In this document: in pieces, positions 19,543 to 63,660 of the stretch
Numbering within the stretch: position 1 is the stretch's first letter
Layout of the letters: every line of letters begins with the position of its first letter
Assembly: GCA_001799565.1 (NCBI GenBank)
Contig: MGTS01000037.1
Span: 1-64,000 of the forward strand
Reading direction: 5' to 3'
Source: Elusimicrobia bacterium GWA2_51_34
GTDB taxonomy: Bacteria > Elusimicrobiota > Elusimicrobia > Elusimicrobiales > UBA9959
DNA length: 64,000 nt
The notes under the pieces: model-generated
What the model saw: only the letters and a program-made list of their open reading frames with translations
Told to the model about the DNA's origin: nothing
Database searches by the model: none
Position numbers and translations under genes: made by a program

Positions 19543-19742
19543 CAGCGAATAGCGAAGTAGCGAAATAGGGGTTGGAGAAAGTGCGAAGCACAAGCCTGAG
19601 GCAGTGACTCTGGCCTGTCGCGGGCCTCTGGCGCCATCCGCGACTGTGCCGTATCAGGGGCTAAGCCTATCAAACGGCCAATTCTGTGATCAAGTTCCTT
19701 ATTTCTGCCCTCTATTCGCTATTTCGCCACACATTCGCTTAC
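19543..19742. repeat. Intergenic word hairpin (agcgaat/attcgct)
   Basis: Left words agcgaata, gcgaagta and gcgaaata (19551-19568) pair at word level with right words attcgct, atttcgcc and acattcgct (19713-19740). The interior holds gtgcgaagcac, shared with 21131 and 56246, a copy of gccgtatcaggggctaa (shared with 45362), and a final gatcaagttccttattt core. Confidence 0.75.
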
Positions 19743-28848: not shown

Positions 28849-30119
28849 TCCCCTAGTATTTCCAGCGCCGCGCCGGCAAGGTAAAAAGAACCCAGCACAG
28901 CCGCTGTCCGGGCTTTTGACGCCGACAACAGGGCCGCTTCTATATTTTCCTGGACCTCAATTGAAGCGTCAGGCCTTAAACCGGAAAAAATATCAGCCAA
29001 TACGCAGGGGTCAACCGCGCGCGGAGAGCATGGCCTTGTAAAAATCACTTTTGACCCCGCCAGCGGAGAAAGAATTTTAAGTATGCTCCCGTAATCTTTG
29101 TCCTCAAGCGCGCCGATTACGAAAGCGGCCTTGAGTCCGGCAAAAGGCGAAGCCGCCCAGGTGCGCGCGAAAGCCTGCGCGGCCCCAGGGTTATGCGCCC
29201 CGTCAAGCACAAATACCGCCCGCCCAAAGGCAGGCCCGCTTGTAAGCGTCTGAAACCGGCCGGCGAGCCGCACTTTTTCAAAACCGGAGGCCGTGTGCGT
29301 TTTATTAACGGGCCAGCCCATACCGTTAAGTATTTCCAGGCCCTCATAAACCAGCGTGGCGTTTGAATTCTGCGGCGAACCCATAATACCGAAGGGATAA
29401 AGCTCCCCTGTTTTTTTACGAGTGAGCGTAATGGAATCGTTTTCCCAATTATAAGACTTTATTTCAAATTCCGGGGCAAAAAAATGCAGGGGCGAGTTTT
29501 TAAGCTCAGCCTCTTTCAGTATCGGAGCCATAGCCTCGGCGCGAAGGACCGGCGCGATGCATGAAACACCCTGCTTTATAATGCCCGCTTTCTGGAAAGC
29601 TACCGAGGATAAAGTATCGCCCAGATATTTTTTATGGTCGTAGTCCACCGAAGTTATAACGCACAGCTCCGGTTTTTTTATGACATTGGTGGCGTCAAAA
29701 CGCCCGCCTATGCCCGCTTCTACAACGGCAATATCAATTTTACTCCTTTCAAAATGAAGGAACGCCATGCAGGTCAGAAGCTCAAAAAAACCAAGCTCAG
29801 GTCCGGCCGCGTATACCTTCTCAAAAGCGGCGGCGAAACCGGCGCGGCTTATTTCCGCGCCGCACACCTGTATCCTCTCTGTCAGCCGGATAAGGTGCGG
29901 AGAAATAAATAAGCCCGTTTTTAGCCCGGCCGAGCGGATGGCGACTTCAAAAACAGCGCACACCGAACCCTTGCCGTTGGTGCCGGTAACATGAATGGTC
30001 TTTATTTTGTCCTGCGGGTTGCCAAGCCTCTCAAGGCAGGCCAGAACGCCCCCAAGGTCGTCTTTTTTAACAACGCTGGGCCTTTCCAATAAAATTTTTT
30101 CAGCTTCCTCAAAAGTCAT
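28824..30119 (-). CDS. folC: Folylpolyglutamate / dihydrofolate synthase
   Basis: About 431 residues. Mur-ligase-type ATP-binding site GTNGKGS near residue 45 and DGAHNPGAAQAF in the C-terminal domain. Adds glutamate to (dihydro)folate. Whether it has both activities cannot be told from sequence. The ATG at 30119 is preferred to a TTG at 30134. The last residues are encoded by 8-bp repeat units, so the true ancestral end was probably slightly upstream. Confidence 0.93.
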   Translation of the reverse strand: MTFEEAEKILLERPSVVKKDDLGGVLACLERLGNPQDKIKTIHVTGTNGKGSVCAVFEVAIRSAGLKTGLFISPHLIRLTERIQVCGAEISRAGFAAAFEKVYAAGPELGFFELLTCMAFLHFERSKIDIAVVEAGIGGRFDATNVIKKPELCVITSVDYDHKKYLGDTLSSVAFQKAGIIKQGVSCIAPVLRAEAMAPILKEAELKNSPLHFFAPEFEIKSYNWENDSITLTRKKTGELYPFGIMGSPQNSNATLVYEGLEILNGMGWPVNKTHTASGFEKVRLAGRFQTLTSGPAFGRAVFVLDGAHNPGAAQAFARTWAASPFAGLKAAFVIGALEDKDYGSILKILSPLAGSKVIFTRPCSPRAVDPCVLADIFSGLRPDASIEVQENIEAALLSASKARTAAVLGSFYLAGAALEILGDKSRSLGV

Positions 30120-50982: not shown

Positions 50983-53022
50983 ATGGACTCACTTATAGAC
51001 ATCCGCAAGGTTTCAAAGACCTATATCACCGGCTCGTTTAAAGTGGAGGCGTTGAAAGAAGTTTCCCTTCAGATCAAAGCCGGCGAGCTGGTTTCCCTGG
51101 TCGGACCGTCCGGGTCCGGAAAATCCACTTTACTGCATATCATGGGTTTTCTGGACCGGCCCGACGCCGGAGAATACTATTTTGCCGGCCACCCTACGGC
51201 AAGCCTGGCCGAAGGGCAGCTGGCCGCTATACGCAGCCGCATGGTGGGCTTCATCTTCCAGTTGTTCCATCTTTTAAAGAGGACCTCGGCCAAAGACAAT
51301 GTAATGCTGCCCATGGTATACAGCGGCCTTGGGACCGATTCCAAAAAAGCGCTTGACTGCCTGGCCCTTGTCGGCCTTTCCGACCGGGTAAAGCACAAGT
51401 CAAACGAACTCTCCGGCGGCCAGTGCCAGCGCGTGGCCATAGCCCGCGCGCTGGTAAACGACCCGCTGATAGTGCTCGCCGACGAACCCACCGGCAACCT
51501 GGACGCCAAAAGCCGACAGGAAGTAATGCAGGTAATAAAAGACCTGAACGACCGCGGGCTTACCGTGGTAATAGTCACGCACGACGAGGAGGTCTGTGCC
51601 CAGACCCGCCGCGTGGTGCGCATGAAGGACGGCGAAATAGTTTCCGATGAGCCCCGCCCCGCCCTTTTGGGCCGGGAAGCGCGGCTTGAAGTACGGCCTG
51701 AATCTTTTACGCCCGAACGATTGGCCCAAAAGGGCGGGGCGGGCTTAGGTTCAGACCCCCCCGGGCGCTCCATGCATCTGCCGCAGGCCAGGCTGGGCTT
51801 TACACCGTCGGAAATAACCGAGCAGATCAAGGTGGCTTTCAAGGCCATCTGGAGCCATAAGATGCGCAGCGCGCTTACAATACTCGGCATTTTTATAGGA
51901 GTGGGCGCCATCATCTCGCTTATGACCATAAGCGAAGGCTTCATGAAAAGCCTGCTAAGCGGCGCCACGGAGGACGACGCGAAAAAGATCTGGGTCACTC
52001 CCCGCCACGAACATATGAAACCGCGCCGCCCCCTTAACCACGGAGATTTGGAGGCCATAAAGTCGGGAGTGCCGCTGGCGGAAAAAATAACGCCTATAGT
52101 GGCGGGCAACGCCCAGGCCTCGGTAGGCAATACTCATGTTGACGCAAGCGTCCAGAGCCGCGAAGGCTTTACTCTTGAAGCGCAGAAATCCAAAAAAAAT
52201 ATTTTTGAGAACCGCAAGCTGGAAGGCCGTTTCTTCACGCCGGACGAGAACTCAAGCCGAGAACGTGTTGCGGTTATAAACCGTACCCTGGCCACTAAGC
52301 TGTTCGGCTTGGAATCCGCGGTTAATAACGAGATGCGCCTGAAAGGCATTACTTTCACTATAGTGGGGGTTGCCGAGGACCACCAGGCGGAACAGATCTT
52401 CGGAGGCCAACCCACGGCTTACATCCCCTTAAACACCGCTTCAAAACGCGTGTTCGGACAGACCCGCCTGAACTATATAGAGGTGCTCGCCCCCACACCC
52501 TTTGCCGCCTCCGAAGTCCGAAAGCAGATAATTATTGCCGTGCGCAAAGAGCGCGGGCTGCGCGATGATACGGAAGATAATTTTGAAGTGCGCACTTTTG
52601 AAGCGCAGATACAGATGTTCAAGGATAATATGGGTAAGCTCTCGCTGGTGGTTTACGCTATAGCCGGAATTTCACTGCTTGTGGGCGGCATAGGCATAAT
52701 GAACATAATGCTTGTAAGCGTTACCGAACGCACGCGCGAAATAGGACTGCGCAAAGCCCTTGGGGCCAAGAACTCCGATATTTTAGGCCAGTTCCTTATT
52801 GAGGCGGTTACGCTTTGCTTTATCGGCGGGGCACTGGGGATAGCTTTGGGTTTCGGGCTCGGTTGGGCGGCCTATTTTTTTATAAAAGTGCCCCCGACGC
52901 TTGGCGCGGGTACCGTCGCCTTCGCCTTCATCTTCTCAAGCCTGATCGGAGTAAGCTTCGGCTTCTGGCCGGCCCTGCGCGCGGCAATGCTTGACCCCAT
53001 AGAAGCATTGCGGTACGAATAA
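50983..53022 (+). CDS. macB: MacB-type ABC exporter, fused ATPase-permease
   Basis: 679 residues. ATPase (1-220): Walker A GPSGSGKST, signature LSGGQCQR, Walker B VLADEPTGNLD. A palindromic element then codes residues about 223-254, in the linker before the first membrane helix (MRSALTILGIFIGVGAI). A periplasmic domain follows, then three FtsX helices ending in the conserved SFGFWPALRAAMLDPIEALRYE. Mechanotransmission-type exporter of toxins, peptides or drugs with MFP and TolC. The start lies one base after the MFP stop. Confidence 0.93.
   Translation: MDSLIDIRKVSKTYITGSFKVEALKEVSLQIKAGELVSLVGPSGSGKSTLLHIMGFLDRPDAGEYYFAGHPTASLAEGQLAAIRSRMVGFIFQLFHLLKRTSAKDNVMLPMVYSGLGTDSKKALDCLALVGLSDRVKHKSNELSGGQCQRVAIARALVNDPLIVLADEPTGNLDAKSRQEVMQVIKDLNDRGLTVVIVTHDEEVCAQTRRVVRMKDGEIVSDEPRPALLGREARLEVRPESFTPERLAQKGGAGLGSDPPGRSMHLPQARLGFTPSEITEQIKVAFKAIWSHKMRSALTILGIFIGVGAIISLMTISEGFMKSLLSGATEDDAKKIWVTPRHEHMKPRRPLNHGDLEAIKSGVPLAEKITPIVAGNAQASVGNTHVDASVQSREGFTLEAQKSKKNIFENRKLEGRFFTPDENSSRERVAVINRTLATKLFGLESAVNNEMRLKGITFTIVGVAEDHQAEQIFGGQPTAYIPLNTASKRVFGQTRLNYIEVLAPTPFAASEVRKQIIIAVRKERGLRDDTEDNFEVRTFEAQIQMFKDNMGKLSLVVYAIAGISLLVGGIGIMNIMLVSVTERTREIGLRKALGAKNSDILGQFLIEAVTLCFIGGALGIALGFGLGWAAYFFIKVPPTLGAGTVAFAFIFSSLIGVSFGFWPALRAAMLDPIEALRYE
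51651..51745 (+). repeat. In-frame palindromic element, copy B
   Basis: Perfect 21-base inverted arms CCCGCCCCGCCCTTTTGGGCC (51653-51673) with their complement at 51723-51743, around 49 bases. Translated from PRPALLGREARLEVRPESF onward. Same length, frame and register as copy A. Confidence 0.93.
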
Positions 53023-60613: not shown

Positions 60614-60762
60614 GATAGCTAAGTCAGGGTCCTGCCGGCGGGTTTATTTTCGGGGGCCGGGTCGGCCAGCGCGGCCGCCCTTATCCTCGCCCTCCCCTGA
60701 CTGCAAGCCCAAGTCGGGCTCCGGAAACCCCCGAAAACAAATCCCGCCGTCACCCTTCCGGT
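60614..60762 (-). repeat. Structured palindromic repeat, copy 1
   Basis: Inverted arms GGCGGGTTTATTTTCGGGGG (60637-60656) and their partner (60728-60748) enclose a loop with ACTTGGGCTTGCAGTCA and GAGGATAAGGGCGGCCGCG on the minus strand. Copy 2, inverted, is at 62240-62430. The arms differ between copies yet still pair, as in a conserved RNA or DNA hairpin. It contains no gene. Confidence 0.85.
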
Positions 60763-60967
60763 TATTAAATCTCCGTCTTTTTTCACTTATAGGTGTTTAA
60801 CCCCACCCTTTTTGCGGCACATGTACCCCACCCAAAACAGTAAAATTAACTTATGAGGTGACTGAATTTTGCCGGCAGGATTGCTCTCCACGCGTTGCCT
60901 AATTCGACGTATTGCCCGCATAATATTCAACCTTTCAATAACGTTCGCATGATTTGGCGGTTTTTGT
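60763..60967. other. Noncoding stretch after lipoprotein gene
   Basis: About 200 bases with no convincing open frame, hairpin or repeat; lower GC than the neighbouring repeats. Confidence 0.4.
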
Positions 60968-61849
60968 TTAGTTTTTTAGCAATCCTTCTCTGCAAAGATA
61001 ATCCAAAAGTTCTTTTTCACCAATCAACAATTTTAATTCCGGGGGAACTATAACATTATCCCTTGCCTTTTCCGGGTAGCATGCCCTGGCTTTTTTTCGC
61101 GCCTCTCCAACAACCTTTTCTTTATCTTGATTTGAAATTCCTTCAATCATTTTTTTAAGGTCGGCCTCTTTAATATCACATAAACAATCGTATGTATTGC
61201 ACACTGGCACTCCCGGCACTATGCCCGCATTATCCTGATCTAGTTGCATCCTTTCAATTGCCGCAGGACAATAAACTTTGCGGCTAAAAACTCCACTGTC
61301 TACACGTTTAAGCATCGCGCAATAGCCATTCGCCACCCATAAAAACTCATACTTACCATCAATTCCCCTTTTACTCCCCTTGGAGTTACTTCCGAAAACA
61401 ATTTTAAGTTTCGTCCCTTTTTCAAGACCGTTAAAAGAGTTTATCAAATTCTCTGATTTATCCCCAGGTATCGAAAGCGGAGAGCTATTCTCCAAAGGAG
61501 TTCCATCCTCATTAGCATACTTAACCAAAGTCCCATAAACCATTGTGTCAATCCGCGTAAATATTGAAAACCCACAAACTGGGATACATATAAGTTTTCT
61601 GTCCACAAAAACATTTGCGATACTATCGGACGGAGCTTGGCTTTTCGCGTCCTCTATCGCTGCATTTAGCGAGTCATCTCCGGTTGGGCCAAGACCAAAT
61701 ATGTAGTAAGCACTCGAGGTTCCAGTCACCGTTCTAACTGGGGTCTCATATTTACTACCAATACTGGTTGATGATACAGCCGCAGGCATATAATGAACAC
61801 ATCCTGCCAAAAAGAGAGTGAACAACGAAACCAATAATGCGTTTTTCAT
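60968..61849 (-). CDS. Lipoprotein with TRL-like region, unknown function
   Basis: 293 residues. Lipobox LAGC at residues 14-17 predicts lipidation. About residues 45-110 (SSAYYIFGLGPTGDDSLNAA, then ...TMVYGTLVKY) resemble TRL-like lipoproteins with alternating Gly and Asp. A Cys-rich segment (CNTYDCLCDIKEADLKK) and a charged C-terminus follow. AT-richer codon use than topA or dprA. Lies alone between two inverted structured repeats, splitting the dprA-topA pair, so horizontal acquisition is likely. Confidence 0.7.
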   Translation of the reverse strand: MKNALLVSLFTLFLAGCVHYMPAAVSSTSIGSKYETPVRTVTGTSSAYYIFGLGPTGDDSLNAAIEDAKSQAPSDSIANVFVDRKLICIPVCGFSIFTRIDTMVYGTLVKYANEDGTPLENSSPLSIPGDKSENLINSFNGLEKGTKLKIVFGSNSKGSKRGIDGKYEFLWVANGYCAMLKRVDSGVFSRKVYCPAAIERMQLDQDNAGIVPGVPVCNTYDCLCDIKEADLKKMIEGISNQDKEKVVGEARKKARACYPEKARDNVIVPPELKLLIGEKELLDYLCREGLLKN

Positions 61850-62022
61850 GTTTCCTTTGTATGTCTTTAACCTTTTTGAGACTTCGGCTTAAAACGAAGG
61901 ATCAAAAAGGTAGCTGGTTTTATAATTCCTCAGCCTTCATCTTTTATCCCTCCGAAAATTGCATGAATATTTTTATTAGAAAATTTCTCAATAAAAAATG
62001 ATTTCAACTGCAATTTTTCGGG
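61850..62022. other. Noncoding stretch upstream of lipoprotein gene
   Basis: A + strand stem actttttgag...cttcggctt...aaggatcaaaaagg lies near 61870-61910. No gene recognised. Presumably holds the lipoprotein promoter. Confidence 0.4.
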
Positions 62023-62094
62023 TTACACAACGCGGATATATTTGCCGCTTTTTAACGCGATCAGCTCTGAGGTTTCAAGCTCAAAAAAGCCCCC
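62023..62094 (-). pseudogene. Duplicate of the dprA 3' end
   Basis: The minus strand reads GFFELETSELIALKSGKYIRVV then TAA. The true dprA end is ALFELETAELIALRSGKYSRAV with TAG at 62497-62499. So a second, diverged copy of the last ~22 codons lies 475 bases downstream, with no body attached. Confidence 0.88.
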
Positions 62095-62239
62095 CAACAC
62101 AAATATTCTACCAAATAGGTACCACTATAAACCTGGCTGCGACCACTGGGTGGGTCATTGGGATGTACCGTTAAAAGGGCGGGACAAATACCTATTAATT
62201 TTAAGACGCGCCGGAGGATAGGCCAGAGAAACGTGAAAA

Positions 62240-62430
62240 TCTGAGGGGTAGGCGGCGGGGTTTGTTCGCGGGGGTTTTCCGGACCGCGACTTGGGCTTGC
62301 AGTCAATGGAGCGGGAGGATAAGGGCGGCCGCGAGCCGTCTGATGGCCATAGGCCCTTATACGGCACTGCCATAGGCTGGTGGCCGCATCCGACCCCCGC
62401 GGGCAAACCCCGTCGCAGGACCCCGACCGA
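62240..62430 (+). repeat. Structured palindromic repeat, copy 2
   Basis: Arms 62252-62274 (GCGGCGGGGTTTGTTCGC then GGGGG) and 62394-62416 pair over 23 positions, three as G-U in the + strand RNA. The loop shares ACTTGGGCTTGCAGTCA and GATAAGGGCGGCCGCG with copy 1, and the distal flank GCAGGACCCCGACC matches as well. An extra ~55 bases form an inner hairpin region. Bases 62095-62239 hold no recognised feature. Confidence 0.85.
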
Positions 62431-62496
62431 GTTTCTACACAGCTCTCCACCCAAAGCCATAAGTCCGGCGTTACGACTTCCGGAAAAGGTGGGAAG

Positions 62497-63660
62497 CTAC
62501 ACAGCGCGGGAATATTTGCCGGATCTTAACGCTATCAGCTCAGCGGTTTCCAACTCAAAAAGGGCGGCGCCCGCGCGCTGAACGCTCCAGGCCGACGCGC
62601 CCGGCTTCCCCGCCATGGAAAGCTTCAGCACCACTTCATCGGCGCAAAGCCCTTCGGACGAGTCTTTGACCGCCACCCAGACAGCGTTGGCGTCTTCCGA
62701 AAGAGTTTTTAAAATTCCGGCGCTGCCCCCGCCTTCCGGTTTTGAAAGCGCTGAGGTCTTAAGGCCAAACATTGCCTCCGGCGGAAAACTTGAGATAATA
62801 TCCAAAGCGTCCTCAACCGGCGCGGCTCCGTTTTTTATAAGGTAATTAGGCCCCCGGGCAACAGGGCAATCCACCTGCCCAGGCACCGCCAGAACTTCCC
62901 GGCCCTGCTCAAGAGCCGCTCTGGCGGTAATAAGCGCTCCGGATTTAAAATCGCCCTCCACAATAACTACAGCGCGCGAAAGGCCGGATATCACGCGGTT
63001 GCGCCTGGGGAAACTTACGGGCAAAGCGCCGGCCCCCATGGGGAATTCCGAGAAAATAGCCCCGCCTTTTTCAACTATTTCAGCGGCAAGCCGGGTATTT
63101 TCACGCGGGTAACAGACATTTAAACCGGTGCCGATAACGGCCCAGGTGATGCCGCCGGCTTTAAGAGACGCCTGATGGGCGGCCGTGTCTATGCCGCGCG
63201 CAAGCCCGCTCGCCACGGTAACCCCGGCCCCGCAAAGCTCACACGCAAGCCGCGCGGCGGTTCGAAGTCCGTAGCTTGTGGCCTTGCGCGTTCCCACCAC
63301 TCCCACGGCGGGAGCCGCCGTGCTGAACCGCCCTTTAACATAAAGAACAAGCGGCGGGTCATAAATGTCTTTCAAAAGTTCGGGATAGTCCGGGTCAAGC
63401 GCCGTTAAAGCCCGGGCGCCGGCCTTCAGTACAAGGTCAAGCTCTTTGGCGGGATCAAAAGCTCTGGTTTCCCTTACAAACCGCTCCGCGGTCTCAATAC
63501 CCAAACCGCCATCCGCGGATAGTTCGGCCGGGGTTTTTGAAAGTATTTCCCGCGCCCCACCATAAAGCTCTATAAGACGAAGCGCCCAGTCGCTTCTCAG
63601 GCAGGAAAAAGAATTTATCCTTACCCTGGCCAGTTTTTCTTCGTCAACGGAAACGGACAT
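62497..63660 (-). CDS. dprA: DNA processing protein DprA (Smf)
   Basis: 387 residues. Loads RecA on single-stranded DNA taken up in natural transformation. N-terminal helical domain, Rossmann core with VGVVGTRKATSYG, VASGLARGIDTAAH, FPRRNRVISGLS and SGALITARAALEQGREVLAVPG, C-terminal winged-helix (DML1-like) domain ending in the FELETAELIAL segment that is duplicated at 62023-62094. Confidence 0.95.
   Translation of the reverse strand: MSVSVDEEKLARVRINSFSCLRSDWALRLIELYGGAREILSKTPAELSADGGLGIETAERFVRETRAFDPAKELDLVLKAGARALTALDPDYPELLKDIYDPPLVLYVKGRFSTAAPAVGVVGTRKATSYGLRTAARLACELCGAGVTVASGLARGIDTAAHQASLKAGGITWAVIGTGLNVCYPRENTRLAAEIVEKGGAIFSEFPMGAGALPVSFPRRNRVISGLSRAVVIVEGDFKSGALITARAALEQGREVLAVPGQVDCPVARGPNYLIKNGAAPVEDALDIISSFPPEAMFGLKTSALSKPEGGGSAGILKTLSEDANAVWVAVKDSSEGLCADEVVLKLSMAGKPGASAWSVQRAGAALFELETAELIALRSGKYSRAV

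Follow-up and report, generated by a model that had tools for sequence, protein, structure and literature searches.

The two inverted repeats near the right end of the window are very probably copies of a conserved folded core that is carried by small, non-autonomous IS1634-type transposable elements. The window comprises the first 64 kb of contig C37 from an Elusimicrobiota genome of 2.63 Mb, labelled G000; G001 and G002 denote sister genomes of the same genus, while G007 and G010 are relatives. On the evidence of the aligned copies, the three-way-junction hairpin of each core is kept by compensating changes and by strand-specific G-U and G-A mismatches. The IS1634-derived mobility of the complete members is well supported by sequence comparison, and an RNA-level function of the core is favoured, with more reserve. 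The repeats and their surroundings consist of the following features.

60625-60760, minus strand: copy 1, a structured core A composed of the long stem P1/P2, a junction, and the hairpins P3 and P4; 116.6 bits with the covariance model R1.
60802-60837, minus strand: 5' module of copy 1 in degenerate form, with two G-boxes and AT-rich sequence downstream; weight-matrix score 6.0, which is near noise (other window positions 1.7-7.2).
60968-61849, minus strand: lipoprotein-like gene, candidate passenger, between the head-to-head copies.
62024-62087, plus strand: left direct repeat, an extra copy of the dprA 3' end, 83% identical to 62498-62561.
62148-62183, plus strand: 5' module GGGTGGG-N22-GGGCGGG upstream of copy 2; pattern match with 0 mismatches (reversed control 0 matches), weight-matrix score 49.4.
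62241-62425, plus strand: copy 2, structured core A with a nested insert; R1 88.6 bits.
62335-62382, plus strand: repeat X, inserted in the loop of hairpin P4 in copy 2; G000 has about 30 other matches.
62449-62474, plus strand: outer 3' arm CCCAAAGCCATAAGTCCGGCGTTAC, a class-1 end, which pairs with GCGCCGG near 62209 and is conserved among class-1 copies.
62498-62561, plus strand: right direct repeat, the dprA 3' end proper (gene on the minus strand).

The initial annotation described two inverted copies whose arms differ in sequence and still pair within each copy, and both points hold. A repeat finder run on the window joins the copies through inverted matches at 60670-60732 and 62271-62333 (63 nt, 89% complementary), 60623-60660 and 62390-62427, and 60725-60749 and 62253-62277. 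The G-U pairs claimed for the plus strand of copy 2 were recovered as well, and the RNA fold of this copy reaches -146.9 kcal/mol on the plus strand versus -129.5 kcal/mol on the minus strand. Copy 2 is longer than copy 1 because a separate dispersed repeat, repeat X, occupies its hairpin loop. Copy 1 shares 88% DNA identity with a copy at C14:169864, and its degenerate module holds the position with respect to the core that is seen elsewhere in the family. A third R1 match in the window, at 51640-51755 (28.5 bits), was rejected as a family member; it is a palindromic repeat within an ABC-transporter reading frame. The long, GC-rich palindrome at 51655-51750, CCCGCCCTTTTGGGCC...GGCCCAAAAGGGCGGG, lies in frame within the ABC-transporter gene 50983-53022 and leaves the frame unbroken.

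Copies of the family are found well beyond the window. A DNA query with copy 1 returned eleven pieces, corresponding to nine copies, in G000 and more in G001 and G002. In total, 36 copies were aligned, and R1 was built from 27 of them, excluding both window copies that it later scored. With this model, 10 copies were identified in G000 and 21 and 28 in two genomes of the same genus, along with weaker matches in another five genera of the family; in all, 18 of 61 genomes were positive. The same search of the sister family returned no members. No Rfam family matched at the gathering threshold, and no credible weak match was present either. A phage or plasmid origin was considered and dropped, as a search of phages, plasmids, and viral contigs for the repeat family gave no match. 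In a literature search, neither a report of such repeats in Elusimicrobiota nor an IS1634-derived MITE with folded cores was found. Relative to the downstream gene, approximately 22 of 31 cores, counted by eye, are convergent, which is a weak bias.

Core A is made up of an outer helix, a long stem, and a two-hairpin junction, whose sequence GAGGAUAAGGG hardly varies except in one G001 subgroup. The claim that covariation between the two window copies reflects selection on structure gains support from the 27 other copies, where 26 of 48 pairs are changed on both sides (142 cells in total); slid partners give 4 to 9 pairs, and none of 500 shuffles reaches the observed values. Many copies beyond the original two thus show compensating changes. 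Across genera, in an alignment of 43 matches that was itself fitted to the model, 44 of 48 pairs are changed on both sides, compared with at most 23 in slid controls. The alignment of 27 copies was not fitted to the structure and was used to count mismatches on the folded strand, which is the minus strand for copy 1 and the plus strand for copy 2. G-U occurs in 50 cells versus 15 for A-C, and G-A in 65 cells versus 1 for U-C. This excess indicates that one strand is the folded one, and minimum free energy folding agrees with the polarity. Part of this bias could also be seen with hairpins of single-stranded DNA, so it is by itself no proof of RNA.

The transposon anatomy is apparent from ten elements in G000, G001, and G002 that are bounded by the terminal inverted repeat (TIR) CYGWCTTCCGM, usually abutted by direct repeats of 21 to 125 bp. 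These direct repeats were first detected by comparing the flanks of the copies. Their scores range from 32 to 230, against a 99% point of 26 and a maximum of 46 in the null; three of the ten (32, 40, and 40) lie below the null maximum and one equals it. In eight of the ten elements, the TIR is 0 to 4 nt away from the direct repeat on both sides. Four copies in G001 have inverted ends CTGACTTCC[GA]A and direct repeats measuring 125 bp in one case (97% identical) and about 94, 50, and 35 bp in the others, and the TIR elements of G002 have repeats of 77, 33, 28, and 21 bp. For one further G001 copy, an empty counterpart site exists in G002. Two elements belong to G000 itself:

C21, about 142310-142966 (657 nt): ends CCCGTCTTCCRCAA, 72-bp direct repeat, two cores.
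C9, about 29266-29738: ends CCCGTCTTCCRCAA, 40-bp direct repeat, two cores.

The cores of both elements are arranged head-to-head and face outward, which is also the arrangement of the window copies. The elements measure about 380 to 660 nt and consist of the ends, the 5' module, and hairpin cores, with no transposase gene inside. The combination of TIRs, long variable direct repeats, and a missing transposase gene shows that complete members inserted as units.

The parentage of the ends can be traced to the IS1634 family. At a contig edge in G001, the end motif immediately precedes a transposase fragment with a match to the IS1634-family model NF033559 of NCBIfam (216 bits, cutoff 100), the TIR CCCGACTTCCGCA lying 74 nt upstream of the start codon. 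G010 contains a full IS1634-type insertion sequence (IS) without a core. The first 11 nt of its left end are the same as in the youngest G001 mini-element, and the left end matches four G001 copies over up to 66 nt (78-85%) and two G000 copies over 38 to 40 nt (90%). Its right end, GGTGTCCCAAATCGGAAGTCAGG, is identical to that of the G001 mini-elements, and the match extends over 27 to 28 nt (89-96%). The G001 IS in turn matches the G002 elements over about 78 nt. The transposase is present in G001 and G010 and was not detected in the fragmented assemblies of G000 and G002. By their IS1634-type ends, their duplications, and the lack of a transposase, the complete elements are identified as IS1634-derived miniature transposons. 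Direct repeats of 8 to 514 bp have been reported for IS1549 and IS1634, and a 2008 survey of the IS4-related families offered no mechanistic model for these long duplications (PMC2266710).

A 36-nt module, GGGYGGG-N22-RGGYGGG followed by an AT-rich stretch, is located upstream of the cores on the same strand. In copies whose module scores above noise, the spacing to the core is 25 to 66 nt. The module occurs 14 times in G000 and 10 and 22 times in the sisters, with 0 occurrences in the reversed control. It is recognisable in genus g6 too, and not in genera g4, g9, and g12. Besides core A and its divergent form, core B, the module is found ahead of two further structured cores, C and D, and most of the modules that lack a core A match lie before one of these two. 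According to the author's count on RNAalifold structures, covariation is seen in 20 of 51 pairs of core C and 6 of 26 pairs of core D. The ratio of G-U to A-C is 13:5 in core C and 7:0 in core D; G-A to U-C stands at 4:5 and 2:5, without the lean of core A.

Nested inserts are a recurrent feature of these cores. Repeat X (45-50 nt) occupies the same hairpin loop in copy 2, in the copies at C42:102670 and C1:39287, and in one G001 copy. The ABC-transporter genes that flank the copy at C42:102670 are homologous to those beside the copy at C16:194106 of G002 (85% amino-acid identity), and only the former copy contains repeat X, providing a natural before/after pair. Repeat X (GCCGTCTGATGGCCATAGGCCCTTATACGGC...) is also present at 19646-19679 of the window; in cores A, C, and D, it inserts into hairpin loops. 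Two module copies of G000 with matching flanks (L168 at C38:5769 and L169 at C41:40664) lie within inverted repeats AATTAAAAGTGCACA; one carries core C, which the other lost or never had. At L185, L078, L178, and other loci, the hairpin GCACTTTTTCC...GGCCAAAGTGC lies inside the G-boxes or after the core as a further nested palindrome. A separate observation concerns the RAYT genes at L103 and L104, which are flanked by GTAG-type REP copies, AAAAGGTAGCGTCTACCTTTT (in L103 at 1435-1457 and 2087-2109).

The window copies themselves are probably old members that either have decayed ends or come from a subgroup with another end sequence. The terminal repeat CYGWCTTCCGM was found beside neither of them, and no flanking direct repeat was found around copy 1. 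Copy 2 and its module span 62088-62497 and are enclosed by the 64-bp direct repeat, which scores 73 against a 95% point of 26 and a maximum of 56 in the null. Copy 2 appears to have inserted into the dprA 3' end, duplicating about 64 bp, and the imperfect identity of the repeat (83%) fits the expectation for an old insertion. At the orthologous site downstream of dprA in G002, the direct repeat is absent, the module and outer arms are present, and the core is divergent. This absence and the modest identity of the repeat count against the preferred reading, as do the missing terminal repeats beside the window copies, the lack of a detected IS1634 transposase in G000, the coreless full IS, and the negative search for promoters and terminators. 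The 3' arm of copy 2, CCGGCGTTAC, assigns it to the subgroup with 31-bp inverted ends, in which the class-1 outer arm forms an inverted repeat at both ends of one G001 copy. These 31-bp ends were rejected as element termini, being complete in that copy only and there without direct repeats.

It is also conceivable that the two copies and the lipoprotein-like gene moved together as a single composite element of 1.9 kb, although this reading is doubtful. The head-to-head, outward layout is that of complete elements, and the G002 locus lacks both copy 1 and the gene. The only other homologue of the gene in G000 likewise adjoins a core copy, so that both G000 members of this lipoprotein family (the window gene, L264, and L263 being its listed loci) lie beside a core A element; the two sister genomes have no member, and one of two G007 homologues is beside an element. 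However, the stretch as a whole is enclosed by neither a TIR nor a direct repeat, and copy 2 has a flanking repeat of its own. The gene has no Pfam match, and its role as a passenger is possible, not established. A somewhat better, still tentative case can be made for core and module as a free-standing, multicopy small-RNA gene with a secondary association to transposon ends. Its covariation is strong and strand-polar, the module is kept between two genera though the cores diverge and is always upstream on the same strand, several copies persist in orthologous gene neighbourhoods, and many copies are missing recognisable ends. It is at odds with the ten complete members bounded by TIRs and long direct repeats and with near-alike copies at unrelated G001 sites; furthermore, no canonical promoter or terminator was found when the elements were searched for sigma-70 promoters and intrinsic terminators.

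Two other proposals concern the origin of the palindromes. Compensation may stem from palindrome correction, i.e., intrastrand template switching in replication, instead of selection on RNA. Long, GC-rich inverted arms invite this process, and young copies do change both arms together. Correction removes mismatches, however, and would not on its own leave the observed polarity: it provides no reason for three times more G-U than A-C, for a G-A to U-C ratio of 65:1, or for invariant junction loops, and the same lean is seen for G-U, though not for G-A, in cores C and D. This makes correction an unlikely source of the pattern. Least probable are REP/BIME-type elements moved by RAYT tyrosine transposases and recognised as single-stranded DNA hairpins. 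The repeats are indeed palindromic, extragenic, and multicopy, and G000 has six Y1_Tnp matches, but at least three RAYT loci have another palindrome, AAAAGGTAGCGTCTACCTTTT, at their flanks, and a core copy is found at only one of twelve such loci. In addition, complete copies have TIRs and long duplications and differ in size from REP elements, which are given as 20-40 bp (PMC3733652).

Miniature transposons are usually viewed as decayed transposons, and their hairpins as a consequence of inverted ends. In the family described here, the hairpin is a separate, elaborate core under one-strand selection, and different cores are found behind one shared 5' motif. The initial annotation offered two interpretations, a noncoding RNA or hairpin ends recognised by a transposase or recombinase. 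The fold is strand-polar and RNA-like as the former implies, with the transcript itself being presumed. As to the latter, the repeats are indeed parts of transposable elements, but their folded cores lie inside, and the ends of complete members are separate IS1634-type terminal inverted repeats. For the preferred reading of a folded core on IS1634-type mini-elements, an IS1634-family DDE transposase made elsewhere would act on the ends in trans. The core would function as an RNA transcribed outward from the conserved 5' module and may be retained because the folded transcript insulates or regulates the element. Insulation from neighbouring transcription and action as a small RNA are candidate roles. 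A bolder proposal, held to be improbable, is a mobile family of structured RNA genes in which one 5' motif drives interchangeable RNAs (A/B, C, and D) on IS1634-type ends and the RNA directly participates in transposition. If true, this participation would account for the constraint at the RNA level as well as for the long, variable target duplications of this IS family. The family also represents a natural series of IS1634-type insertions, with duplications of 21 to 125 bp, in mini-elements small enough for testing.

Among known systems, IS1634 and IS1549 (IS4-related DDE transposases) share with the mini-elements the terminal CYGWCTTCCGM (IS family consensus C-----YT), the subterminal left end over 66 nt, and long, variable target duplications. 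The mini-elements differ in having no transposase gene, in their size of about 380-660 nt versus 1.5-2 kb for the IS, and in carrying folded cores, of which the full IS has none. Prokaryotic MITEs, such as QMITE2 of Coxiella and the ISL3-type MITE of Microcystis, are likewise short, non-coding, multicopy, and extragenic, with TIRs in common with an IS and predicted stem-loop transcripts. In contrast to these, the present elements are GC-rich rather than AT-rich and have two outward cores whose junction fold is maintained by covariation. Their cores are interchangeable downstream of a single 5' motif, and their duplications range from tens of bp to more than 100 bp. REP, BIME, and REPIN sequences with their RAYTs are also extragenic palindromic repeats that sometimes form inverted pairs, but size and ends differ, and the RAYTs in these genomes have their own REP. 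With HEARO, the group II intron, and other mobile RNAs in Rfam, the family shares the idea of a structured RNA within a mobile element, although the core itself matches none of them in Rfam.
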